Positions 172 through 22,235 of a stretch of DNA of 38,356 bases are shown here, piece after piece (within the stretch, counting starts at the first letter, position 1; each line of letters starts with the position of its first letter). Under the pieces are notes generated by a model. That model ran no database searches and was not told the origin of the DNA. It worked only from the letters and a program-made list of their open reading frames with translations. The position numbers and the translations under genes were made by a program. Source of the stretch: Verrucomicrobiaceae bacterium (GTDB lineage Bacteria; Verrucomicrobiota; Verrucomicrobiia; Chthoniobacterales; JAATET01); NCBI GenBank assembly GCA_027488755.1, contig JAIYAZ010000122.1, forward strand, positions 1 through 38,356. Reading direction: 5' to 3'.

Positions 172-1119
172 CTAGCCGAGGTTTTCCTTGCGGACGGTCG
201 GCAGGAGAATGTCTAGGCCGAGCTTTTCCGAGATTTCCCGCATCATGTTTTGGCCGGCCACGCTGTTGCCGACCTCATCCAGCGCCGGGGAGAACGTGCC
301 AATGCCGCCGACGCCGGAGTAGGCTGCGAGGAGGCCGCCGCCGACCCCGGATTTTGTGGGGACGCCCACATTGACCATGTAGGTGCCCGTGCCGTTGTAG
401 AGTCCGCAGGTCGCCATCAGGCCCACCACGATCCGCGCCTCCCGGGCGGTCAGCACGCGCTCGCCGGTGGAGAGAACTCCGCCGGCGGCGAAAAATCGGC
501 CCATTTTAGCCAGCACGCTGGCCGTCACCCGGATCGAGCACTGGCGGAAATACACGTCGAGGATGTCCTCCACGTCGCCATCGATGTCGCCGTAGCTTTT
601 CATCATCCAGGCCAGGGCGCGGTTGGTGTGTCCCGTGGCCTTTTCCGAGAGATAGGTTTCCCGGTCGAGATCAAGCCCGGGGGACTCGCTGATCCGCTGC
701 ATGAACCGGAGAATCCGGTCGAACTTTTCGTCGGGGCTGCCTCCGGCGATGAGGGAGGTCGTCAGGATGGCGCCAGCGTTGATAAAGGGATTTGACGGCA
801 CGTGCGCGGAGCCGGTCTGGAGTTTGACGATGGAGTTGAACGCGTCGCCGGAAGGTTCCTGGCGCATGTGCCGAAAGACCTCTGCCTCGCCGCGGTCGAG
901 CAACGCGAGGGCGAGGACCACCGTTTTGGAAATGCTCTCGATGGCGAAGGGGATTTCGCTTTCCCCGGCGGTGACGATCCGTCCGTCCTGAAACGCGATG
1001 GCAATCCCGAGATGCCCGGGGTCGACGCGCGCCAGCTCGGGGATGTAGGTGGCGACCTGGCCTCGTTTGTAATCCTCGCGGTGCCTTCCAACGAGGTCCT
1101 GTAGAATCGCGTCGATCAT
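172..1119 (-). CDS. glsA: Glutaminase (acid-resistance type)
   Basis: Serine-dependent glutaminase, L-glutamine + H2O to L-glutamate + ammonia, predicted cytoplasmic. At 315 residues it matches the bacterial family (about 305-310). The Ser-x-x-Lys catalytic motif is S62-I-S-K65 in ESISK; NAGAI around residue 116 and KSGVGGG near the C-terminus are further family signatures. It is the last gene of the minus-strand set gadB-gadC-glsA, 26 bp after gadC. In E. coli the acid-induced glutaminase YbaS works with GadC: ammonia made from glutamine neutralises protons and the glutamate feeds GadB. The same role is inferred here from the gene order. It overlaps no other real gene. Confidence 0.95.
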   Translation of the reverse strand: MIDAILQDLVGRHREDYKRGQVATYIPELARVDPGHLGIAIAFQDGRIVTAGESEIPFAIESISKTVVLALALLDRGEAEVFRHMRQEPSGDAFNSIVKLQTGSAHVPSNPFINAGAILTTSLIAGGSPDEKFDRILRFMQRISESPGLDLDRETYLSEKATGHTNRALAWMMKSYGDIDGDVEDILDVYFRQCSIRVTASVLAKMGRFFAAGGVLSTGERVLTAREARIVVGLMATCGLYNGTGTYMVNVGVPTKSGVGGGLLAAYSGVGGIGTFSPALDEVGNSVAGQNMMREISEKLGLDILLPTVRKENLG

Positions 1120-1145: not shown

Positions 1146-2711
1146 TCAGCCGACGGGCTTGTTGTGGGGCTCCTGGTCGAGGGTGCTCTCCGCGGTCGGG
1201 ATGAGGTGGTGGGATCCGCGGGCCTTCGGGTGCAGCCAGAAATGACCCTCCGGGGCATTGTGAAGGCGAATGGGAACCATGTCCGCCACGGCCCCTTTGG
1301 AACGTTTATCGTGCAGCGCGTAGATGAGGAAGGGCAGCGCAAAAATGATCAGAAAACTGATGATGAGAATCGACACGTAGGTCCGGTCACCATGGGCTCC
1401 GGGCAATCCGCTCGGAGGGAAGAACGAAATGACGAATGCCAGCACGGAGATGCTGAGCCCGGCGAGGGCCACGGTTAACTTCACCGCCGGCCCGCCGGGA
1501 ATCGAGTAGACGCGCTTTTTGTCGCCGTGCTTCAGCACGAGGTTCATGTAACCCAGGAAGAGCAGGAAATACGTGATGAGGTAGAGCACGACCGTCAGGG
1601 CCAGGGCGATGAGGAACGACATGTTGCTGCCGCCTCCGCCCATGGTGAGCACGACGATCGCCACGGAGGTGATGGTGAGTTGAAAGACCACCAGCGGAAC
1701 GGGCACGCCGTTCTTGTTCACCTTCGCCATTGATTTCGGAAGGATGCCCTTTTGCGCGGTGACATACATGCCCCGAGAGGGTCCAACGATCCAGGACGTG
1801 ATCTCGGCAACCACGCCGAGGAGAAGAATCGCCCCGATCACGCGAACCAGCCATTCGAGGTGCGCTCCGTGGGAATTGATCAGCACCTGGAAGGTCTGCA
1901 CGACGCCCGCGCTGAGGTTGATCTCGTTTTGGGGAATCACTGCCGCGACCGAGAGGCCGCCGATCGAGCTCAGACCGATGGCGGCCGCCATGAGCAGAAA
2001 CATTGCGATGGGGTAATCGCGGCCCGGGTTGGTCATTTCGTTGACGTGGGTGGCCGAGGCCTCGACCCCCATGTAACTCAGGATAAACGCGACCAGCACC
2101 ACGAGGGTGTTGATCTTGGTGAAGTCGGGGAAAAAGGTCGCCGAGTTCATCGCGATTTCCAGCTTCGATCCGCTGGTCAAATGGATGACCGCCAGCACGA
2201 CGAGAATCGCGGCCGGCAGCAGAATCCCGCCGAGGAAACCGGCCTTGGCGATGCGGGCCGTGTATTTGGTGCCGCCGAGCTGGGTGAAGGCGAGGAACCA
2301 GACGATTAAAAGGCAGGCGACCGTTTTCAGCAGTGGATCGGTGTTGAGCGCCGGCCAGCCGAGCACGTAGGAAAGCGCGCCGAGCACGAAGTAAAGCATG
2401 GGGATGAAGCCGACCGCGATCTGGAGGTAGGTAAAGGCAATGGCGGCGAATCCCCACCGCTCCCCGAGCGTGTTGGAAACCCACGCAAACACGCCGCCAT
2501 CCTCCCAGCCTTCCACGGTGGCCATTTCGGCGGCGCACAGCGCGACCGGAATAAACCAAAGCAGCCCGCCAAGCAGCAGGAAGAAGATCAGGCTGAAGCC
2601 GGAGGTGGCGAAGGTGGGGTATTCATACACCGCCATGACCATCGAGGCGGTAATGGCGAAGAATCCAAACAGGCCGAGCTGCCGGGCGGGGTTGGGGGCG
2701 GGTTTGTCCAT
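1146..2711 (-). CDS. gadC: Glutamate/GABA antiporter, APC family
   Basis: Inner-membrane amino-acid exchanger that imports glutamate and exports GABA. The 521 residues resemble E. coli GadC (511) along the whole length: the first membrane segment carries [20 protein letters not shown], and the middle carries [18 protein letters not shown] and [16 protein letters not shown]. About 12 hydrophobic segments are visible. The C-terminal tail has [18 protein letters not shown], matching the GadC C-plug that blocks the cytoplasmic side at neutral pH, so pH gating is probably kept. It sits between gadB (34 bp upstream) and glsA (26 bp downstream) and is probably cotranscribed with both. Confidence 0.96.
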
Positions 2712-2745
2712 GGGATGGTCGGGGTTGGGGGCGGCGAACGGTCGG

Positions 2746-4137
2746 CTAGTGGTGGTAACCCTGTCCCTCGGCGGCGGTGATCGGGTGGGTGGCCGGGTGC
2801 TTGTCGAAATACGCGATGCTCTGGCGGAAATCCTCGATGAGCAGGGAGATCAAATCGGCGCTGACCCCGTGGCGGATGAGTGCCCGCTGGACGACGAGGT
2901 CCTCCCGGTGGGCCGGCATGGAGTAGGCGGGCACCTGCCAGCCGCGCACCCGGAGGCGGTCGGCGAGATCGTAGAGCGTGAAGGGGACGTCGGCCCCGTC
3001 CTTGAGCTTCCAGCTCACGCAGGGGATTCCGGAGGCGGGATCGCCGCCGTAGATCAACTCAAACGGCCCGAGCTTCAAAATCGCCGCCGCGAACATCTGC
3101 GCGGTGTCGTAGCAGGCCTGCTGGAGCTTGGTGTAACCCTCACGACCGAGGCGGATGAAATTGTAATACTGGGCGATGATCTGTCCGCCGGGCCGGGAGA
3201 AATTCAGCGCGAACGTCGGCATGTTTCCGCCGAGGTAGTTCACGTTGAAGATGAGGTCCTCCGGCAGATCCTTCGTCTCGCGCCAGACCACCCAGCCGGC
3301 GCCGAGGGGGGCCAGGCCGAATTTGTGGCCGGACGAGTTGATGGATTTGACCCGCGGCAGACGGAAATCCCACAGCACCTCGGGGGCGCAAAACGGCGCG
3401 AGGAAGCCGCCGCTGGCTCCGTCCACGTGGATGGGAATGTCCCAGCCCTTGTCCTTCTGGAGTTGATCGAGCGCATCGCTCACGGCTTTCACGGGCTCGT
3501 ATTGGCCGGTGAACGTCACGCCGAGGGTGGGCACCACGCCGATGGTGTTTTCGTCGCAGCGCTTGATGACCTCCTCCGGCGTCATCAGGAGGCGTCCGCC
3601 CTCCATCGGGATTTCCCGCAGTTCGATGTCCCAATACCGGGCGAACTTGTGCCAGCAAATCTGGACCGGCCCGGAGATCATGTTCGGCTTGTCGGTGCTT
3701 TTGCCCTCGGCCCGCCGTTTCTCCCGCCAGCGCCATTTCATCGCCATGCCGCCGAGCATGGCCGCCTCGCTGGAGCCGGTGGTCGAACACCCGATGGTTT
3801 CCGCCGCCTCGGGGGAATTCCAAAGATCGGCCAGCATGTGGACGCAGCGGCCCTCGATGGCCGCCGTCTGCGGATACTCGTCCTTGTCGATCATGTTCTT
3901 GTCGATGCACTCGTCCATCAGACGGTGCACCTCCGGCTCCTCCCAGGTCTGACAAAAGGTCGCCAGGTTCTGCCGCGCGTTGCCGTCGAGCATGAGTTCG
4001 TCGTGGATCGCCTGATACGCGCCGCGGGCCGTTTCCTCGGTTTGGGGAAAGCCCTGGAGCGGCAGGGCGTGGGCGAGTTCGGTGGAGGCGAAAACCTCGT
4101 CGGCGAAGGAGGGTGGGAGGGTTTTGTGGAGCGGCAT
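2746..4137 (-). CDS. gadB: Glutamate decarboxylase
   Basis: PLP-dependent decarboxylase, L-glutamate + H+ to GABA + CO2, the proton-consuming step of glutamate-dependent acid resistance. It has 463 residues against 466 in E. coli GadB. The PLP lysine is K272 in SSGHKFG and the PLP-ring aspartate is D239 in HVDGASGG. The N-terminal core has [15 protein letters not shown]. The protein ends GYHH; its penultimate His462 corresponds to the penultimate histidine of E. coli GadB (H465), which blocks the active site at neutral pH. First gene of the minus-strand operon, divergent from the porin gene across a regulatory region with a palindromic element. No clear Shine-Dalgarno site precedes the ATG. 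Confidence 0.97.
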
Positions 4138-4197
4138 GATGGTTCGCGGGGTGTGCGCCCATCTATTGCCGTTCGGAAATCCGCGTCAATCTTTCTT

Positions 4198-4237
4198 TAC
4201 TTAAGTATTTTTGACATTGATCAAGCATACCTAAGTA
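4198..4237. promoter_or_regulatory. Symmetric 40-bp operator between gadB and porin
   Basis: The AT-rich centre of the gadB/porin divergent region has three nested parts: TACTTAAGTA (4198-4207, a perfect palindrome), 3 bp, TTGACATTGATCAA (4211-4224), 3 bp, and TACCTAAGTA (4228-4237). The central box fits TTGA-N6-TCAA, the site type of FNR, FixK and other CRP-family regulators. Overall the two 20-bp halves match at 14 positions as a dyad centred at 4217.5. The decamers start exactly 30 bp apart, about three helical turns. Inferred: a CRP/FNR-family dimer binds the centre and a second factor, or the same one cooperatively, binds the flanks to control both directions. No confident -35/-10 pair could be assigned. 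Confidence 0.6.
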
Positions 4238-4285
4238 GCTTTGGCTTGACGGCTGGAAGGCGCATTGGTGGACTGCGCGCACCCC

Positions 4286-5716
4286 ATGAAACGCCTCTTG
4301 TTTCCCGTCCTGTCGGGCCTCGTGCTGGCCGCCGGTTCCTCCCTCGCGCAGCCGGGGCCGTCGCAACCGACCGCTGCACCCGCGTTCGAGTCCGGCGCGC
4401 AAAATTGGTGGGACGGAGGCAGTTCCCTGCCGACGGTGCACGAGCGATGGAACCTGCGGTTTCACCGCAAAAGTCGCCTGCAGACCGGATCGGTCCTTCC
4501 CGGGACAACCGTGCGACAGCAGCTGGCCGATGCCGGATTGAGCTTCAACGGTGCCTACACCGCATTTTTCCTGGGGAACGTGGCCGGGGGCGCCGAGCAG
4601 GCCTTCGCCTACAACCACATGCTGTTTCTTCAGGTGAACCTCGACTTCGAGAAAATGGTGGGTTGGAAGGGCGGCTCGCTGATCTGGTCCATCGCGGATA
4701 ACGCGGGCAAGGACCTCTCGCGCTCGATCGGAAACAACTTCCAAATCTCCACCGACTACGGCCCCAACACGTTCATGTTTAACGAGTTTTACCTCAAGCA
4801 GGAGCTGCTTGACGGGGCGCTCACGCTCAAGCTGGGGCAGATGTCCGCGCTCAACGACTTTCTCGCGTCGCCCCTCTACGACGTCTATTCGAATCTCGCG
4901 TTTTGCGGGAACCCGTTGGCCGTGGCGTTCAACGTGCCCGCCACCGTGATGCCCGTGGCTTCGTGGGGGGCCCACGTGAAGGTCACCCAGCCCGAATGGT
5001 ATGCGCAGACGGGGATTTATCAGGTCTCCGACCGCCTCGGGCAGGTGCCCTACCACGGCGCGGATTACAGCATTCGGTCGGGCGATGGCACGATCCTGTT
5101 CGCGGAGGCAGGTTGGACGCCCTCCTTTTTCAAACGCGAGGGCACGTCGACCAAGACCTCGTCCAAAACCTCCGACGACAAAAAAACCTTCGCGCCGGTG
5201 GAGGATGCGGGCAGCCCCGGCTACCCCGGGCACTACAAGGTCGGCGCCTACTTTTCGAATTGGAGCTACGCCCCGTTCTCGAGCGGTTCGGATGTCGCCA
5301 ACGTGTATGGCTTTTATGTGCTCGCCGACCAAAAGATCTATCAGGAAGCCGGTTCCCCGTCGGAGGGGCTGACGCTGTGGTCGGCCTTCGTCTGCTCCCC
5401 GCAGGAGCTCGTCGCGCAGATTCCGTATTTTGTCTCCGGCGGCGCGCAATACGTCGGGCTCATCCCGCATCGCGACAAGGACACCACGATTTTCGGCGTC
5501 GCCTACGGCAGCTACAGCAGCAATCTCGCCTCCCAGCAGGCCTCGCAGGGATTGCCGCAGGAGGATTATGAAATGGTCTTCGAGTGGGCGTATCAGATCC
5601 AGGTCAACAAGTGGCTGCAGGTCCAACCCGACGTCCAATACATCGTCAACCCCGGCGCCACGCACACGCTGAACAACGGCCTCGTCATCGGCGCCGTCGT
5701 CAACGTCAGCTTCTAA
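4286..5716 (+). CDS. OprB-type carbohydrate-selective porin
   Basis: Predicted outer-membrane beta-barrel of the OprB family. The ATG at 4286 starts a signal peptide (KRLLFPVLSGLVLAAGSSLAQ); a TTG 21 bp upstream is in frame but would spoil the signal. The mature protein has 476 residues including signal, typical for OprB. Family features include QLADAGLSFNGAYTAFFLGN, the repeated aromatic strands, LGQMSALNDFLASPLYDVYSN, and the C-terminal strand ending VVNVSF, the terminal Phe expected for outer-membrane insertion. It is divergent from gadB and shares the palindromic control region, so it may admit glutamate, glutamine or other solutes for acid resistance; that link is inferred. Substrate is unknown. 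Confidence 0.85.
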   Translation: MKRLLFPVLSGLVLAAGSSLAQPGPSQPTAAPAFESGAQNWWDGGSSLPTVHERWNLRFHRKSRLQTGSVLPGTTVRQQLADAGLSFNGAYTAFFLGNVAGGAEQAFAYNHMLFLQVNLDFEKMVGWKGGSLIWSIADNAGKDLSRSIGNNFQISTDYGPNTFMFNEFYLKQELLDGALTLKLGQMSALNDFLASPLYDVYSNLAFCGNPLAVAFNVPATVMPVASWGAHVKVTQPEWYAQTGIYQVSDRLGQVPYHGADYSIRSGDGTILFAEAGWTPSFFKREGTSTKTSSKTSDDKKTFAPVEDAGSPGYPGHYKVGAYFSNWSYAPFSSGSDVANVYGFYVLADQKIYQEAGSPSEGLTLWSAFVCSPQELVAQIPYFVSGGAQYVGLIPHRDKDTTIFGVAYGSYSSNLASQQASQGLPQEDYEMVFEWAYQIQVNKWLQVQPDVQYIVNPGATHTLNNGLVIGAVVNVSF

Positions 5717-5773
5717 CCGCCGCTCCCTTCCCCCGGCCCGCGCGGGACGAGTCGCACCTCCAAGCCGCCCTTC

Positions 5774-7120
5774 GTGCCGCCCAGGCTGGACCAACCTGAA
5801 CCGCCCCGCCCGCCGCATTCCGAAGCGTCGGACCTCGACCGGGAAATGCCGGGCATCGGGCGGGCGTGCCTCGTCGCGCTCCTGGCCGGCCTGGCGACCG
5901 GCGTGGTGGGGGCGGGCTTTCGCGCGGGCCTGAGCTGGCTCGGCCCGCGGCACGTGGCCTTTGTCGAATGGGCCCACGCGTGGCCGTGGCTGGGCTGGCT
6001 GGCCCCGGTTTTGTTGGGGGCGTTGGGGGCCGGGCTGGCGCGGCTCCTCGTGCGTCCCCAGCCGCTGGCGGCGGGGTCGGGCGTGCAGCACGTCGAGGCG
6101 ATCATGCGCGGCGAAGCGGAGCCGGCGTCGCTGTGGGTCGTGCCGATCAAGTTCGTCGGGGGACTCGTCGGCATCGGAACCGGCCTGGCGCTTGGCCGGG
6201 AAGGGCCGACGATTCAAATGGGGGCCACGCTCGGCGCGGCCCTGGCGGCCCGCTTTCGCTGCGGCTGGGAGGTCATCCGGGACCTGCAGGCGGCGATGGG
6301 CGGAGCGGGCCTGGCGGTGGCCTTTAACGCGCCGATCGGCGGGGCGATGTTTGTGTTTGAGGAGGTGGCCCATGCGTTTCGCCTGCGCCTGACGCTGCTG
6401 ACCCTGCTCGGCTCCGCCGTGGCGGTGGCCGTGGCGCGGCTGCTTCTCGGCGATGCCCCGGACTTCCGGGTCGCGCCGTTGCTGGCCGGGGATTCCGGGC
6501 CCGTGCTCCTGTATCTGGGGTTCGGCCTCGCGCTCGGGCTGCTCGGCGTGCTCTACAATCGCCTGATCATCGGGTGCATCGACACAATGGAGCGCCTGAG
6601 GCGGTGGCCGGCCGAGGCCCGCGCGGCTTTGATCGGAGCGATCGTGGGCGGCGTGGCCTGGTATTCCCCGCATTTTGTGGGCGGGGGTGACGCCCTTTGC
6701 CAGGCCGTCCTCGGCGGGGGGCTGCCGATTTCTTTTCTCCTCGTGGTTCTCGCGGTGCGCTGGTTTGTCGGGCCGCTGAGTTATGCCGCCGGCACCCCTG
6801 GCGGCATCTTCTCGCCGCTGCTGCTCGTGGGCGCCGCGCTCGGGGCGGGGTTTGCCACCGGCGTGAACGGGCTCCTGCCCGAGGGGCAGGCGGTGTCCAC
6901 CGTCGCCTTTGCCGTGGTCGGAATGAGTGCCTTTTTCACCGCTGTGGTCCGGGCCCCGTTTACCGGCTTTATTCTCATTGCGGAAATGACGGCCACCAGC
7001 AATCTCATGGTGCCGATGCTGATCGCCGGATTCGGAGCCATGCTGGGGGCCTCCCTGCTGAAGGGCCAACCCATCTACGACACCCTGCGCCTCCGCCTGC
7101 GAAAAACGCCGACGCCGTGA
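5774..7120 (+). CDS. ClC-family H+/Cl- exchanger
   Basis: Inner-membrane chloride/proton antiporter of the ClC family, 448 residues. Ion-pathway motifs are in order: GSGV (S102), GREGP with gating E143, FEEV with E197 matching the internal proton glutamate (E203) of E. coli ClC-ec1, GIFSP, and the tyrosine in GQPIYDTL matching Y445. Retention of both glutamates predicts coupled exchange rather than a plain channel. In E. coli such exchangers relieve the charge imbalance caused by GadB/GadC during extreme acid shock, which fits the neighbourhood. The start is GTG at 5774; an in-frame ATG at 5846 would also leave all helices. It lies 57 bp after the porin and overlaps the next gene. Confidence 0.92.
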   Translation: MPPRLDQPEPPRPPHSEASDLDREMPGIGRACLVALLAGLATGVVGAGFRAGLSWLGPRHVAFVEWAHAWPWLGWLAPVLLGALGAGLARLLVRPQPLAAGSGVQHVEAIMRGEAEPASLWVVPIKFVGGLVGIGTGLALGREGPTIQMGATLGAALAARFRCGWEVIRDLQAAMGGAGLAVAFNAPIGGAMFVFEEVAHAFRLRLTLLTLLGSAVAVAVARLLLGDAPDFRVAPLLAGDSGPVLLYLGFGLALGLLGVLYNRLIIGCIDTMERLRRWPAEARAALIGAIVGGVAWYSPHFVGGGDALCQAVLGGGLPISFLLVVLAVRWFVGPLSYAAGTPGGIFSPLLLVGAALGAGFATGVNGLLPEGQAVSTVAFAVVGMSAFFTAVVRAPFTGFILIAEMTATSNLMVPMLIAGFGAMLGASLLKGQPIYDTLRLRLRKTPTP

Positions 7121-7602
7121 ACGCGCCCCTTCCCGCCCTCCCCGATATGCCGACCGAGTCCTCGCTGTTTGTCCTGGCTTTGAGCGCCGCGGTGTTCTGC
7201 GTGATTGTTTCCACCAACCTCATCGGGCTGCACGCCATCGCCGTGTTCATCCGCAAACGCCCGGCCGGCAGTTTGCGCCACGTGATTTTCCTTCACGAGG
7301 TGCGCTTCATCCTGCTGGTCATGTTTTCGTTCTTCCTGCTGTATTTTCTGACGAACGCCCTCTGGGCCGCCTTTATGAGCGTGACCGGGGTGCTGCCCAC
7401 CTACCACCAGTGCCTGTTTTACGCGCTGGAGAACTACACCTCGCTGGGGCTCACGCGGGTGCAGGTGGATGACAGTTGGAGAATCCTCGCGCCCCTGATT
7501 TCGCTCTCCGGCGTGTTTTGCCTGGGCTGGTCCATCGCCGTGCTGGTGAGCGTGTTCGGCCATCTGTATTCGACCGGGCCGGATTCCGGGCCGACCCCCT
7601 GA
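7117..7602 (+). CDS. Small K+-channel-like membrane protein
   Basis: A protein of 161 residues with about three to four hydrophobic segments. The C-terminal half (LPTYHQCLFYALENYTSLGL, then WRILAPLISLSGVFCLGWSI) looks like the pore helix, filter and inner helix of small bacterial Ion_trans_2 potassium-channel proteins. The expected filter TxGYG is altered to SLGLT, so selectivity, or even conduction, is uncertain. GTG at 7117 overlaps the ClC stop codon as GTGA, which suggests translational coupling; an alternative ATG is at 7147. Coupling to a ClC exchanger in an acid-resistance island suggests a role in charge compensation, but this is inference. Confidence 0.7.
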   Translation: MNAPLPALPDMPTESSLFVLALSAAVFCVIVSTNLIGLHAIAVFIRKRPAGSLRHVIFLHEVRFILLVMFSFFLLYFLTNALWAAFMSVTGVLPTYHQCLFYALENYTSLGLTRVQVDDSWRILAPLISLSGVFCLGWSIAVLVSVFGHLYSTGPDSGPTP

Positions 7603-7622
7603 ACGCCGCGCGCCGCGGCGTT
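7602..7622. terminator. Bidirectional hairpin between convergent genes
   Basis: A perfect 9-bp inverted repeat, AACGCCGCG / CGCGGCGTT with a CGC loop, occupies the gap between two convergent stop codons and includes the last base of one and two bases of the other. It is very GC-rich and lacks a long T-run, so termination by this hairpin is likely but not proven. Confidence 0.5.
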
Positions 7623-8241
7623 ACCGCAGCAATTCCGTGAGGATGGGCAGCGCCTCCGCCGTGCGCTTCACGTCGAGACGCCGGAGCAGCCGCGAGCGGT
7701 GGACATCGAGGGTCCGGCGGCTGATGCCGAGGCGCTCGGCCGTCGCCGCGCTGCTTTCGCCGCGAAGCATGCCCTCGGCCGCGTCCCGTTCCCGCGGGGT
7801 GAGTTGAATCTTCGGGGGCACGAGCGGCGGCGGGGAGATGCGGCTCTGGAGCGCCTTGTTGACGAGGTCGAGGAGCGTCTGGTCGTGAAACGGCTTTTCC
7901 AGAAAATCCATGGCCCCGCCCCGAATGGCCCGCAGCGCGGTGGGGATGTCCCCGTGCCCGGACAAAAAAATGATCGGGATGCGATACCTCATTTTGGTGA
8001 GCCGGGCCTGCACATCCAGCCCGCTGTAAATCGGCATGCGGAGATCAAGGATGAGGCAGCCGCAGGCGTCGAGCGCCTCGCGATCGAGCAGGAAAGCCTT
8101 CGCGTCGTGAAACACCCGGCAGGGCATCCGCATCGAGCGCAGCAGGCTGGCCACGGCGAGGGCCACCTCCTGGTCGTCGTCCAGAATGATGACCTCGCCA
8201 AACGGCGGGGCGGGGGCGGGATCAGGCCGGGATTTTTTCAT
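7621..8241 (-). CDS. FixJ/NarL-type response regulator
   Basis: A protein of 206 residues with an N-terminal receiver domain (about 16-130) and a C-terminal LuxR-type helix-turn-helix (about 145-200). The receiver has the acidic pocket DDD at 21-23, phospho-acceptor D66 in ILDLRMP, the conserved Ser in FLSGHG, and Lys in EKPF. The output domain has [13 protein letters not shown] and [15 protein letters not shown]. The layout is that of FixJ/TodT-type transcription factors. It overlaps the end of the kinase gene by 20 bp, so the two are cotranscribed and surely partners. Target genes are not shown by the sequence; the nearby acid-resistance promoter is one candidate. Confidence 0.92.
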
Positions 8242-9700
8242 GGCGCATCGAAAATCTCGCGCAGACGGTCTGATTTTTCAGCGGAAGGATCACTAATTTT
8301 CCCCCGTGGGCCTCGGTGATCGACCGGCAGATCGGCAGGCCCAGGCCGAGGCCTCCGGGTTTGGTCGTAAAAAAGGGCTCGAAGCAGCGGCCCAGGTCGG
8401 GGGTCGGGACCTGGGGGGGGATCGGGTTCACGACTTTCAGCACGACATCCCCGCCCCGCCGCGTCAAATGGACTTCGATCACCGCGGCCGACTCGGAGTC
8501 CTCGGGCTGCGGGCTGTTTTCAATCGCGTTCGAGATGAGGTTCAGCACGAGCTGGCCGAGTTGGACGGCGTCCCCGAGCACCGGGGTATCGCGATGGACC
8601 GCCTTCGGGACGAGGCGGACATTCCGGCGCTCGCCAAAGTGGCGCAGGGTTTCGATGGAATCCTCCACGATGCGGCTCAGCTCCACCGGCTTCAGCTCGG
8701 CCTCGTGGCGGATCGAGCGGCGCATGGCCTGCACGATGTCCGCCGCCTTGCGGGCGAGGTCCACGCATTTTTCGATGGCCTCGAGCGCCTCCGCGCGGTC
8801 CTTGGAATCCGCCAGAAACCTCCGGGCGGCCTGGCTGTAGGTGCTGAGGGCGGCCAGCGGCTGATTCAGCTCATGCGCCAGCCGGCCGGCGACCTCCGAG
8901 GCGGAGGCCAGCCGCAGGGCCATGGCCAGTTGCTCGTCGCGCAGCGAGTTGTCCCGCTCGCGTTGGACGCGTTCGGTGACCCAGGAATACACGCCGATCA
9001 ACCGCGTCGGGGCGCCCTCCGGACTCCGCGTCACCACGCGCCCCCGGCTTTCGATGAACACGTAGGGGCGGTTTTCCGCGGGCCATTGCCGGACCACCGT
9101 GCGGTAGTTGTCGTCGCCCGTTTTGGAGATGCGCTCCAACTCCGCCGCGGCGTAGTGCCGGTCGTCGGGATGCACGGTCGCCGAGGCGTCCTCCGCCCGC
9201 ATGAAGAGGCTGACCGGTCGGTAGCCCTGGTCGTTTTCGAAGGCGGCGTTGAAAACCACCTCACCGGTCACCACGTTCCAGTCCCAAAAAAACAGGTCGG
9301 CGGCCTGCATCGCGAGCGACAGCCGGTGCGCGTCCAGCCGGGCCAGCCGCCGCGCTTCGTCCTGCCGATGGAGTTCCACCCTCGCCTGAACGGCGGCGAG
9401 AAAGTCCCGCTGCGGGGAGGGTTTTGTCCGCGGGGCGGGAGGGGCGTCGCCGTGCCCGACGGCAAGATGGCCCGGCCGACGGCCCTTCTGCGGGGCCACA
9501 AACTTCAAGGTCGCGGGAAGGCCGATGCGGCGTTTCCATTTGTTGAGCAGAAGGGAATCCGCGGCGGACTCGACGGTGAACTCCACCGGCCGGCCTTGGA
9601 GGCGCGGCGCGGCGCGGCTCACTTCTTTCCATGCCGCGAGGATTTGGCCGTCCAGATACTTCGGAAGAGAGGTCTTCGTTCCCATCTGCGGGGCGATCAT
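8222..9700 (-). CDS. PAS-domain sensor histidine kinase
   Basis: Cytoplasmic sensor kinase of 492 residues with no membrane segment. Residues 1-100 are a Pro/Arg-rich region I do not recognise; about 125-245 is a PAS domain ([15 protein letters not shown] to [10 protein letters not shown]); the H-box is around H276 ([20 protein letters not shown]); the ATPase domain has N-box [12 protein letters not shown]-box CFEPFFTTK and G2 box GLGLGLP. H-box and F/G2 boxes resemble FixL/DctB-type kinases. The G1 box, normally DxGxG, reads VVNPIPP here, an odd loss that may weaken ATP binding. It pairs with the overlapping response regulator. I see no evidence that the PAS domain binds haem. Start may be 15 bp later at an internal ATG. 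Confidence 0.9.
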
Positions 9701-12650: not shown

Positions 12651-12823
12651 ATGGGGGGAACGTTGGACTAAGTTTTGCACTGCTCACCCGAAGAACAAGA
12701 CCAAACCCGCCGAGTTGGATTGGTGAGCACTGCGTTGTCGGAGAAAACGGGGACAACGACGCTGGCCCGGCCAGGCATGACGTGCGGCGGACCTCTCCAC
12801 CAAGCGGGGGATTCAGGCCGGCG

Positions 12824-17913: not shown

Positions 17914-19344
17914 CTAGAGGGACTTGACGGTGACGGTGGTCTGGGTGGTCTGGCCGCTGGAGTTGGTGGCAGTGATGGTGACGCGGTGGGTTTTGCCGGC
18001 GGCGAGTTTGGTGAGCTTGATGGTCCAGTTGGCGGCGGGGCCGGTGGCGGGCTTGAAGGCGCCGGTGGGGCCGACGCGGTAGGTGACGCGGGTGGCGTTG
18101 GTGCTGGTGCCTTTGAGGGTGACGGTGCCGTTGCGGGCGGTGGCCTTGGAGGGGCTCTTGAGGGTGGGGGCGGGGAAGACGCGCGGGCCGAAGCGGAGGA
18201 CGCGGGCGGCCTGGTAGTCGGAGACAAAGAAGGTGCCGGGGGCGGCAAAGGTCACCTGCGCGGGGCCGAGCAGGCGGTTCGGGTCGAAGCCGTAGGCCCG
18301 CGTGGTGAAGTCTTTCTGCCCGATGACGAGGTCGGCGGCGGCTCCGTTGGTCTTGGTGGCGGCTTTGTTGAAGCCGAGGAGGCGACCGTTGCCGGTGTCG
18401 CTGACCCAGACGTTGCCGGCGGGGTCGGCGGTGACCGCGTAGGGGCTTTTCAGGCCGGTGGCGGTCAGGCTGGTGTTGGCGGTGAGGAAGTCGGGCTGGC
18501 CGAGGACGGCGTCGGCGTTGGCCCCGTTGGCTTTGGAGGCGGCCGCGTTGAAGCGGAGGACGCGGTTGTTGTTGGTGTCGGCGACCCAGAGGCGGCCGGC
18601 GGAGTCGACCGACATCCCCCAGGGCAGGTCGAACCCGGAGCGACTGAGGGCGGTGCCCTGGGAGACAAAGTCGGGCTGGCCGAGGACGGCGTTGGCGTTG
18701 GCGCCGTTGGCTTTTTTGGCGGCGTTGTCCCAGCGGAGAATGCGGCTGCGGCTTTGGTCGGTGACCCAGATGCGACCGGCGGCATCCCCGGTGACGGAGA
18801 CGGGGTCGTAGAGCTGGCTGGCGCTGGCCGGGACGAAGGGAGTCGGGCGGACGGAGGTGAAGTCGGGCTGGCCGAGGATGCCGTCGGCATTGGCGCCGCT
18901 GGCCTTGGTGGCGGCGCGGTCGAAGCGGAGGACGCGGCCGTTGTAGTAATCGGCGACCCAGAGGCGGCCTTCCCCGTCGAGGTAGAGTCCGGCGGGGTAG
19001 GAAAGGCCGTTGGCGGTGCCGGAGCTGGCTAGGTTCGACGTCAAATCGGGTTGCCCGAAGACGGCTTCGGCCGGGCTGCCGGTGACAAAGGCGTCGGCGG
19101 AGGCGTAGCGGAGGACGCGGTTGCTGAGGGAGTCCGAGACGAAGAGTTTGCCGGATACCGGGTCGAAGGCGCAGCCTTCGGTGCTGGCGAGGGTGGCGGC
19201 GGTAACGGTGCCGTTGAAGGAGTTGCCGCTGAAGTCGGGCTGGCCGAGGAGGCTGGTGGCGGATTGGTTGGAGGTGAAGCCGGCGTGGGTTGGCAGGATG
19301 GGCGCGAGGAGCGCGGCGCAGGCGGCGAGGAGGAGCTTTTTCAT
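17914..19344 (-). CDS. Six-bladed NHL-type propeller protein 2
   Basis: A 476-residue exported paralog of its neighbours; signal MKKLLLAACAALLAPILPTHA is almost the same as in copy 1. Its six blades open LLGQPDF, VFGQPDL, VLGQPDF (three times) and VIGQKDF, and blade centres read GRLWVADTNNNRVLRF. The C-terminal domain (GTVTLKGTSTNATRVTYRVG to TTVTVKSL) is nearly the same as in copy 1, including at DNA level, suggesting recent duplication or gene conversion. Start is the ATG opening the signal peptide; the 41 codons upstream in frame overlap the end of copy 3. Spacing is 8 bp on both sides, so it is an operon member. Confidence 0.9.
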   Translation of the reverse strand: MKKLLLAACAALLAPILPTHAGFTSNQSATSLLGQPDFSGNSFNGTVTAATLASTEGCAFDPVSGKLFVSDSLSNRVLRYASADAFVTGSPAEAVFGQPDLTSNLASSGTANGLSYPAGLYLDGEGRLWVADYYNGRVLRFDRAATKASGANADGILGQPDFTSVRPTPFVPASASQLYDPVSVTGDAAGRIWVTDQSRSRILRWDNAAKKANGANANAVLGQPDFVSQGTALSRSGFDLPWGMSVDSAGRLWVADTNNNRVLRFNAAASKANGANADAVLGQPDFLTANTSLTATGLKSPYAVTADPAGNVWVSDTGNGRLLGFNKAATKTNGAAADLVIGQKDFTTRAYGFDPNRLLGPAQVTFAAPGTFFVSDYQAARVLRFGPRVFPAPTLKSPSKATARNGTVTLKGTSTNATRVTYRVGPTGAFKPATGPAANWTIKLTKLAAGKTHRVTITATNSSGQTTQTTVTVKSL

Positions 19345-19352
19345 GGCGGGGG

Positions 19353-20789
19353 TTAGAGCGATTTGACGGTGACGGTGGTCTGGGTCGTCTGGCCGCCGGA
19401 GGTGGTGGCGATGATGGTGACCTTGAAGGTTTTGCCGGCGGCGAGTTTGGTGAGCTTGATGGTCCACGCGGCGGCGGAGCCGGCGGCGGGTTTGAAGGCG
19501 CCCTTGGAGCCGACGCGGTAGGTGATGCGGGCGGCGTTCGTGCTGGTGCCCTTCAGGGTGACGGCGCCCTTGCGCGCGGTGGCCTTGGCGGCGGTGGTGA
19601 GGGTGGGCTTGGCCGCGGGGGTCGGGGTCGGGACGGGGCCGAAGCGGGCGACGCGATTGCCCTGGGGGTCGGCGACCAGGAGGGTGTTTGGGCCGGCAAA
19701 GGCGGCCTGCACGGGGAAGAGCAGGCTGGAGGGCCCGGTGCTGACCTGCTTGGAGGTGAAGTTGCTCTGGCCGAGGAGGAGGTCGGCGTCGGCGCCGTTG
19801 GTCTTGGAGGCGGCGTTGGTGAAACCGATGAGGCGGCGGTTGGAGCTGTCGCTGATCCAGACGGTGCCGTCGGGGCCGGCGGTGACGGAGTAGGGGTTGA
19901 CGAGCGCGGAGGCGGTGAGGCCGATGTTGGAGGCGGTGAAGTCGGGCTGGCCGAGGACGCCGTCGGCATCGGCGCCGTTGGCCTTGGTGGCGGCGCTGTC
20001 GAAGCGGAGGACGCGGCTGTTGTTGGAATCGGCCACCCAGAGGCGGCCGGCGGAGTCGAGGGAGAGGCCCTGGGGGAGGTAGAGGCCGGAGCTGGAGGTG
20101 CCGGCGAATCGTGCGGTTAAGCTGGTCTGCCCGAGGACGGCGTCGGCGTTGGCGCCGTTGGCCTTGGCGGCGGCGTTGTCGAAGCGGAGGACGCGGTTGC
20201 GGCTTTGCTCGGCGACCCAGAGGCGGCCGGCGGCGTCGCCGGCGAGGCCGCCCGGGTTGTAGGTTTGATTGGCGGTGGTGGCGGTAAAGATGCTGAGGCG
20301 GGTGGAGGTGAAGTCGGGCTGGCCAAGGACGCCGTCGGCGTTGGCGCCGTTGGCCTTGGTGGCGGCGCGGTCGAAGCGGAGGACGCGGCCGTTTTCGGTG
20401 TCGGCGACCCAGAGGCGGCCGGCTTTGTCCACGTAGAGGGCGGAGGGGCGGTCGAGGCCGTTGCGGGTGGTGGCGTTATTGCTGGAGGTGAAATTGCCCT
20501 GGCCGAGCACGGCCTCGGCGGCGGCGCCGGTGGTGTAGGCGTCGGCGGAGGCGTAGCGGAGGACGCGGTGGGCCGAGGTGTCGGCGACGAAGACCTTGCC
20601 CGTGGTGGGGTCGACGGCGCAGCCGGTGGGGGCGTTCAGGTTCGCGGCACCGAGGGTGCCGTTGAAGGACATGGTGTCGAGGTCGGGCTGGCCGAGGGCG
20701 CTGGTGGCGGACTCGTTGGTGGTGAAGCTGGCGAGGCCGGGGAGCGCGGGCGCGAGGAGGGCGGCCAGCGCGGTGAGGAGGATTTTCAT
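19353..20789 (-). CDS. Six-bladed NHL-type propeller protein 3
   Basis: A 478-residue paralog with signal MKILLTALAALLAPALPGLA. Blades open ALGQPDL, VLGQGNF, VLGQPDF, VLGQTSL, VLGQPDF and LLGQSNF, with RLWVADSNNSRVLRF-type centres. A Pro/Thr linker (PTPTPAAKPTL) joins the propeller to the shared C-terminal domain (GAVTLKGTSTNAARITYRVG to TTVTVKSL). More diverged at the N-terminus than copies 1 and 2. It starts 12 bp after copy 4 and ends 8 bp before copy 2. Extracellular; ligand unknown. Confidence 0.9.
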   Translation of the reverse strand: MKILLTALAALLAPALPGLASFTTNESATSALGQPDLDTMSFNGTLGAANLNAPTGCAVDPTTGKVFVADTSAHRVLRYASADAYTTGAAAEAVLGQGNFTSSNNATTRNGLDRPSALYVDKAGRLWVADTENGRVLRFDRAATKANGANADGVLGQPDFTSTRLSIFTATTANQTYNPGGLAGDAAGRLWVAEQSRNRVLRFDNAAAKANGANADAVLGQTSLTARFAGTSSSGLYLPQGLSLDSAGRLWVADSNNSRVLRFDSAATKANGADADGVLGQPDFTASNIGLTASALVNPYSVTAGPDGTVWISDSSNRRLIGFTNAASKTNGADADLLLGQSNFTSKQVSTGPSSLLFPVQAAFAGPNTLLVADPQGNRVARFGPVPTPTPAAKPTLTTAAKATARKGAVTLKGTSTNAARITYRVGSKGAFKPAAGSAAAWTIKLTKLAAGKTFKVTIIATTSGGQTTQTTVTVKSL

Positions 20790-20801
20790 TACGGCGTAGG
20801 G

Positions 20802-22235
20802 TTAGAGGGATTTGACGGTCACGATGGCCTGTTTGGTGCCGGCGCCGGGGGCGGTGGCGAGGATGGTGACCTTGTAGGTTTTGCCGGGGGCGAGCCGGGT
20901 GAGTTTGATGGTCCAGTTGGCGGTGGTGCCGGCGGCGGACTTGAAGGCGCCCTTCGTGCCGACGCGGTAGGTGATGACGGTGGCGTTGGTGCTGGTGCCC
21001 TTGATCGTGACGGTGCCGCGGCGGGCGGTGGCGGTTTTGGGCGCGGTGAGCGTGGCCGGGGTATACACGGTGGGGCCGAAGCGGAGGACGCGGTTGGCGT
21101 CGTAGTCGCCGACGAAGAAGGTGTCGGGGCCGGCGAAGGCGATCTGGGTGGGGTTGTTAAAGCCGTTCGCGCTGGGGTTCTTGGTGCTCGTGACGAAGTC
21201 GGGCTGGCCGATGACGAGATCGGCGTCGGCGCCGTTGGCCTTGGTGGCGGCGTTGGTGTAGGCGAGGATGCGGGCGTTGCTGTAGTCGCTCACCCAGAGG
21301 GTGCCGTTGGTGGCGGCGGTGACGTAGTAGGGCTTATTCAGGTTTGAGGCGGTGGCCGAGGCAACGACGAGGCTCGCGAGGTTTGCCTGCCCGAGGACGG
21401 CATCGGCGCTTGCACCGTTGGCCTTGGTGGCGGCGGAGTCGAAGCGGAGGACGCGATTGTTGTCGGCGTCGCCAACCCAGAGGCGGCCGGCGGAGTCCAA
21501 GGAGAGGCCGTAGGGTCCACGCATGCCGGAGGCAGAGGTGGCGGCGGTGGCGGTGGTGAAGTTCCCCTGGCCGAGGACGGCGTCGGCGTTGGCGCCGTTG
21601 GCCTTGGCGGCGGCGTTGTCGAAGCGGAGGACGCGATTCTTGGCGGTGTCGGAGACCCAGATGCGGCCGGCGGAGTCTCCGGTCACGCCGGTGGCCTGGA
21701 AGATGTTCCCGGCGGTGGGGGCAGCGTTAGGATTCGAGCTGGTGAAGTCGGGCTTGCCGAGGACGCCGTCGGCGGCGGCTCCCGTGGCCTTGGTGGCGGC
21801 CTTGTCAAAGCGCAGCACGCGGCCGCCGTAATACTCGGGGACCCAGAGGCGGCCGGCTTTGTCGAGGTAGAGATTGACGGGATAATACATGCCCGTGGCG
21901 GTCGGGGTCTGGGAGCCGCCGTATGCGATTGTGGAGGTGAAATTGCCCTGGCCGAGGACGGCTTCGGCGGAGGCTCCCGTGGCGTAGGCATTCGCCGAGG
22001 AAAACCGGAGGACGCGGTTGCTGCTGGAGTCGGCGATGAAGAGTTTGCCGGTCACGGGGTCCACGACGGTGCCCTCAGGGTTTTCAATGCTCGCGGCGGT
22101 GGCGTTGCCCGGGGCGGTGATGCTGGTGAAATCCGGTTGGCCGAGCACGCTGACGGCGGTCTGGTTGTTGGTGAAGGCGGCGTGGCCCGACAGGGCGGGC
22201 AGGAAGAGGGCGAGGGCGAGGGCGCGGAATTTCAT
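20802..22235 (-). CDS. Six-bladed NHL-type propeller protein 4
   Basis: First gene of the four-member tandem array, 477 residues, signal MKFRALALALFLPALSGHA. Blades open VLGQPDF, VLGQGNF, VLGKPDF, VLGQGNF, VLGQANL and VIGQPDF. The shared C-terminal domain reads GTVTIKGTSTNATVITYRVG to AIVTVKSL. A 166-bp gap separates it from the divergent aldo/keto reductase, and the promoter for the whole array (and perhaps for the genes down to the class D beta-lactamase) should lie there; I could not pick out a convincing -35/-10 pair. No Shine-Dalgarno site is visible. Confidence 0.9.
   Translation of the reverse strand: MKFRALALALFLPALSGHAAFTNNQTAVSVLGQPDFTSITAPGNATAASIENPEGTVVDPVTGKLFIADSSSNRVLRFSSANAYATGASAEAVLGQGNFTSTIAYGGSQTPTATGMYYPVNLYLDKAGRLWVPEYYGGRVLRFDKAATKATGAAADGVLGKPDFTSSNPNAAPTAGNIFQATGVTGDSAGRIWVSDTAKNRVLRFDNAAAKANGANADAVLGQGNFTTATAATSASGMRGPYGLSLDSAGRLWVGDADNNRVLRFDSAATKANGASADAVLGQANLASLVVASATASNLNKPYYVTAATNGTLWVSDYSNARILAYTNAATKANGADADLVIGQPDFVTSTKNPSANGFNNPTQIAFAGPDTFFVGDYDANRVLRFGPTVYTPATLTAPKTATARRGTVTIKGTSTNATVITYRVGTKGAFKSAAGTTANWTIKLTRLAPGKTYKVTILATAPGAGTKQAIVTVKSL

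Follow-up and report, generated by a model that had tools for sequence, protein, structure and literature searches.

The window analysed here, a 38,356-nucleotide stretch of DNA from a Verrucomicrobiaceae bacterium (GCA_027488755.1, contig JAIYAZ010000122.1), contains a cluster of genes for glutaminase A (glsA), a glutamate/GABA antiporter (gadC) and glutamate decarboxylase (gadB), all three of which score above the curated cut-offs of their families (Table 1). The contig's left end falls just past glsA. Diverging from gadB, an OprB-family porin gene is followed by the genes for a ClcA-like member of the ClC family and for a small hydrophobic protein, for which no family match was found in Pfam or NCBIfam. 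Taken together, glsA-gadC-gadB and oprB-clcA-small membrane gene look like a glutamine/glutamate-dependent acid-resistance island. The genes for a response regulator and a histidine kinase lie convergent to the right-hand (oprB) operon. Elsewhere in the window, NHL-repeat proteins are encoded by three consecutive genes on the minus strand (17914-22235).

Table 1. Genes and sequence elements of the putative acid-resistance island and its intergenic region.
Feature	Position	Strand	Evidence or remark
glsA, glutaminase A	172-1119	-	TIGR03814, 359 bits (cut-off 255)
gadC, glutamate/GABA antiporter	1146-2711	-	TIGR00910, 803 bits (cut-off 673.5)
gadB, glutamate decarboxylase	2746-4137	-	TIGR01788, 644 bits (cut-off 380); PF00282
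TTGACG	4184-4189	-	Possible -35 element for gadB, or outer TTGAC half-site
Left decamer TACTTAAGTA	4198-4207		Perfect palindrome; proposed site of second regulator; it and its partner are the genome's only copies
Core box TTGACATTGATCAA	4211-4224		FNR/FixK/DNR type, TTGAY-N4-RTCAA
Right decamer TACCTAAGTA	4228-4237		Palindrome with one mismatch
TTGACG	4246-4251	+	Possible -35 element for oprB, or outer TTGAC half-site
oprB, OprB-family porin	4286-5716	+	PF04966, 212 bits; signal-peptide-like N terminus
ClC-family chloride channel/exchanger, ClcA-like	5774-7120	+	PF00654, 257 bits; NF003640, 314 bits (below cut-off of 350)
Hydrophobic protein of 151 aa, probably membrane	7147-7602	+	Follows clcA
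Response regulator, FixJ/NarL class	7621-8241	-	PF00072, PF00196; best NCBIfam match FixJ; candidate decamer reader
PAS histidine kinase	8222-9700	-	Overlaps regulator gene; kinase part most like FixL; probable partner of response regulator

gadB starts with an ATG at 4137 on the minus strand and oprB with one at 4286 on the plus strand. The two enclose a divergent intergenic region of 148 bp, and it is in this promoter region that the original prediction had located a nested symmetric operator. The block is exact in the sequence. From 4198 to 4237 it has the form TACTTAAGTA-N3-TTGA-N6-TCAA-N3-TACCTAAGTA, the letters being, in order, TACTTAAGTA (4198-4207), TTT, TTGA (4211-4214), CATTGA, TCAA (4221-4224), GCA and TACCTAAGTA (4228-4237). 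TTGA-N6-TCAA is centred at 4217.5 between the two near-identical decamers, each 3 bp away, and 14 of the 20 positions of this 40-bp dyad are symmetric. The claimed extent of 40 bp, on the other hand, was too short, since the outer hexamers CGTCAA (4184-4189) and TTGACG (4246-4251) are mirror images equidistant from the same centre, each 8 bp from its decamer, and extend the dyad to 68 bp (4184-4251) with 21 of 34 positions matching. The centres of the five elements follow one another at the near-regular distances of 16, 15, 15 and 16 bp. TACTTAAGTA is perfectly palindromic, TACCTAAGTA is so save for a single base, and the 3-bp spacers supply merely one of the 14 symmetric matches; the overall symmetry arises mostly because three palindromes sit at equal 15-bp spacing. 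What is non-trivial is this equal spacing, together with decamers that are nearly identical and rare and a TTGACG pair placed symmetrically around them.

Allowing up to one mismatch, TACYTAAGTA is matched four times in the window, all four inside the block (expected, 0.09). TTGA-N6-TCAA and TTGAYNNNNRTCAA are each matched once, against 0.24 and 0.02 expected, respectively. Exact copies of the decamer, sought throughout the 3.48-Mb genome, were confined to the block, as expected for a dedicated local regulator, and this excludes the numerous random copies lacking promoter bias that had been named as an argument against the operator. With one mismatch the decamer occurs at three further places in the 3.48-Mb genome, comprising a 23S rRNA-like sequence (judged by eye) and two open frames, none of them (0/3) a promoter location. 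When the 148-bp intergenic region was subjected to 2000 dinucleotide shuffles, 0.1% of them reached a 14/20 dyad and none (0/2000) reached 21/34.

The core TTGACATTGATCAA satisfies TTGAY-N4-RTCAA, which is matched once in the window against 0.02 expected, and equals the FixK/FnrN consensus TTGANCNNGATCAANG (PMC4999443) at 10 of its 12 specified bases. One protein in the genome has a Crp-type HTH (HTH_Crp_2) above the cut-off. It is also one of two proteins with a cNMP-binding domain, and no HTH was found in the other, a 190-aa frame. The Crp-type protein is a 683-aa fusion, of which residues 2-386 match the NirJ1 heme-d1 radical SAM model with 462 bits (below the cut-off of 650), and residues 483-673 form a Crp/Fnr-type regulator with DNR as its closest PDB match. 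Its recognition helix, RQETLSRTLRHL, carries the FNR-type ETLSR. ExxSR is the motif of the FNR class, which reads TTGA, and not of the CRP class. In addition, TTGACCGTCGTCAA lies 38 bp upstream of the first ATG in the two-gene operon of the fusion protein. The fusion gene itself (1804-3855 of locus L128, genome contig C12) joins a NirJ1-like radical SAM/SPASM part to a DNR-like cNMP-binding/Crp-type HTH part, and its operon partner is a second radical SAM gene (734-1804); a heme-type biosynthesis enzyme fused to its own likely heme/NO-type regulator would be unusual.

The original prediction had assigned the centre of the block to a protein of the CRP/FNR/FixK family. Judged by sequence, the FNR/FixK interpretation is supported, the sole clear Crp-type HTH of the genome having ETLSR and a box before its own operon. 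The CRP (TGTGA) reading of the core was rejected on sequence. The ETLSR of the DNR-like regulator and the box at its own operon strengthen the assignment, and similar boxes stand before coxB and cydA. These boxes were obtained from a motif survey covering 1.18 Mb, about one third of the 3.48-Mb genome, in stretches, in which TTGA-N6-TCAA was found at 10 sites. Four of the ten are intergenic and directly upstream of genes, namely the acid-resistance island, the operon of the Crp-like regulator, coxB (a non-strict match, 24 bp before the start) and the gene for cytochrome bd subunit I (cydA, 26 bp before the gene). Given a noncoding share of about 11%, measured over 0.72 Mb with a simple ORF caller, this is a modest bias (p ~0.02, binomial, by hand) resting on a handful of sites; the window site, which the ORF caller had marked as coding via spurious frames, was counted as noncoding by hand. 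The cydA site is weaker as evidence because a perfect 34-bp hairpin has this box at its centre. This inverted repeat, CCCCCACGCTTTGAC-CCCC-GTCAAAGCGTGGGGG (12695-12731 of locus L152, genome contig C160), holds TTGAC-N4-GTCAA and may form a hairpin instead of serving as an operator.

One might suppose that a single regulator, perhaps acting as a tetramer or cooperative oligomer, reads all five elements of the block and that the FNR-like centre is incidental. The near-regular spacing of the centres would suit such a protein, but core and decamers are different palindromes, each complete alone, and the core-type box occurs elsewhere in the genome without decamers, so we regard a single reader as very improbable.

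For the decamers, which had been attributed to an unnamed factor, the attribution can be refined to a candidate. The FixJ/NarL-type response regulator encoded in the island is the best candidate reader, and a plausible one by resemblance. Its match to the FixJ family NF006900 (138 bits) fails the cut-off of 255 and is a resemblance of class only; its PDB matches are StyR and FixJ, and NarL comes closest when the HTH is taken by itself. TAAGTA forms part of published FixJ sites, and the FixJ consensus is GTAMGTAG (PMC4999443). In the block, TAAGTA is found at 4202 and 4232, and CTAAGTAG at 4231-4238 equals this consensus at seven of eight positions. Exact GTAMGTAG was not found in the window, nor a full FixJ site in the decamers, nor the decamer upstream of the kinase and response regulator genes. 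A NarL 7-2-7 reading was rejected, the heptamer-like halves overlapping within 10 bp with no 2-bp gap.

It is also possible, if less than probable, that the same composite operator, with a DNR/FNR-type protein at its core, is read at the decamers by another LuxR-type regulator or by an off-contig regulator of MarR/TetR type. The genome encodes five other proteins with a LuxR-type (GerE) HTH, one of them another FixJ-like response regulator; a compact palindromic decamer suits many dimeric HTH regulators, and the contig ends beside glsA, so a neighbouring regulator could be out of view. Against this, no regulator other than the two-component pair at 7621-9700 was seen adjoining the island, and TAAGTA fits the published FixJ sites (PMC4999443).

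A sigma-70 scan returned no promoter at normal spacing, and no convincing -10 element was found on either side, the best matching at three of six positions. Such weak -10 elements suit activator-dependent promoters and look equally like no promoter. If the TTGACG hexamers served as -35 elements, the centre of the core would lie some 64 bp upstream of either start, class-I-like with respect to both, and the decamers would lie about 48 bp upstream of the starts.

The sites, their spacing and uniqueness and the genes around them are observed, as are the existence of the candidate regulators and the type of their helix. From these we infer how binding, start sites, and the sign and logic of regulation may fit together. 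The block would act as a composite bidirectional operator that co-regulates two divergent operons, leftward glsA-gadC-gadB and rightward oprB-clcA-small membrane protein. The DNR/FNR-class C-terminal half of the NirJ1-like radical SAM fusion would bind the central TTGAC-N4-RTCAA box. Given TTGACG hexamers that act as -35 elements, this box would stand in its class-I-like position and would link the island with oxygen, nitrosative or heme state. Both palindromic decamers would be bound by a second regulator, the first candidate being the FixJ/NarL-type response regulator encoded nearby. We give an even chance to this arrangement, in which a DNR/FNR-class protein at the core and a second regulator on the decamers (best candidate, 7621-8241) serve both operons. 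As only 3 bp separate the core from each decamer, the two regulators would be in contact and would either cooperate or exclude each other. The footprint of a Crp-family dimer, about 22 bp, would reach up to both decamers or slightly into them, and contact, whether cooperative or exclusive, is likely. Two regulators in contact would make a two-input switch working in both directions. The boldest form of this proposal, a mirror-symmetric two-input switch that drives the entire island both ways and in which the NirJ-fused oxygen/NO/heme regulator at the centre competes or cooperates with a two-component regulator dedicated to the island on the flanking palindromes, is rather doubtful.

The alignment of homologous intergenic regions, suggested with the original prediction as a check, gave no positive. 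gadB was found at E <= 1e-80 in 8 of 213 members of the order, the source genome included, and the block was not found upstream of gadB in the seven others (54-78% identical), where the neighbouring genes differ or nothing comparable precedes gadB. In the three other members of the genus no gadB was found at E <= 1e-60, and their porins show 43-45% identity. Nor was the block found at the oprB homologues examined in the order and phylum (mostly <=45% identity, with one partial match at 55%), and a scan of GTDB genomes yielded no close porin homologue, the best outside match being a Verrucomicrobia bin at 40% identity. Among 388 genomes of the phylum, paired decamers with up to two mismatches were found in the source window alone, and with three mismatches they were no commoner than a reversed-pattern control. 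No orthologue of the response regulator was found at 1e-35 in 384 genomes of the class, and no divergent gadB/oprB arrangement among the relatives examined. This absence does not refute the block, because the regions compared, lacking divergent gadB-oprB, are not truly orthologous. Since gadB was not found in the other genus members and the paired decamers were found in the window alone, the island looks accessory in the genus and the operator private on present data. In one genome of the phylum (G736), glsA-gadB-gadC-oprB are collinear, without the block (2326-7727 of locus L072, contig C161), a run that suggests that an OprB-type porin recurs with gad genes. In three genomes of the same order (loci L021, L022 and L025), gadB is preceded by an inverted repeat, TTACCT-CGA/GGA-AAGGTA, which may be a gad operator of a different kind.

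Lack of conservation in relatives would also be expected if the block were AT-rich promoter DNA of a GC-rich genome with fortuitous palindromes, its symmetry unused by any regulator. The weakness of both putative promoters and the presence in the window of one other plain 14/20 dyad (centre 17086) point the same way. Chance of this kind is nevertheless unlikely in view of the shuffles, none of which reached 21/34, the uniqueness of the decamers in 3.48 Mb, and the existence of a Crp-family regulator whose helix matches and whose operon is itself preceded by a matching box.

What is known of the control of glutamate-dependent acid resistance comes mainly from enterobacteria. In E. coli, the gad genes are controlled by the EvgAS > YdeO > GadE cascade, where, similarly, a two-component system with a LuxR-type response regulator heads the control of glutamate-dependent acid resistance (PMC4222967). 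The present locus differs in having a single symmetric operator between two operons and a candidate regulator encoded in the island, and no GadE or YdeO counterpart was identified here. The Bacteroides GAD system consists of gadB, glsA, gadC and a potassium channel (PMC8082179), and shares with the island the clustering of glutaminase, decarboxylase and antiporter with membrane channel genes nearby; here, unlike in Bacteroides, there is a divergent operon that encodes a porin, a ClC protein and a small membrane protein without a family match.

As for the regulators, the core resembles the boxes of the FNR/FixK/FnrN system, DNR included, both in its 10/12 agreement and in the ExxSR helix of the genome's DNR-like Crp-type protein. 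What differs from that system is the fusion of the regulator to a NirJ1-like radical SAM enzyme, and also the target, an acid-resistance island and not respiratory genes alone. The decamers share TAAGTA with FixJ sites (GTAMGTAG, TAAGTAATTTCCCTTA), with CTAAGTAG at the right decamer agreeing with GTAMGTAG at 7/8 positions, and each hold a heptamer-like TACYTAA on both strands, comparable to the NarL heptamer TACYYMT, but their half-sites overlap in one 10-bp palindrome, with neither the 7-2-7 arrangement nor a full FixJ site. The parts are, by sequence resemblance, of known kinds in a new arrangement, and the combination was found in no relative searched. If the proposal is true, the locus would be a small case of a single operator serving two promoters equally, and it would draw attention to an odd regulator in which a NirJ1-like enzyme and a DNR-like transcription factor are joined. 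Compared with the enterobacteria, another bacterial lineage would then, through one symmetric operator, tie these enzymes both to a respiratory regulator of the FNR/DNR class and to a porin/ClC operon.
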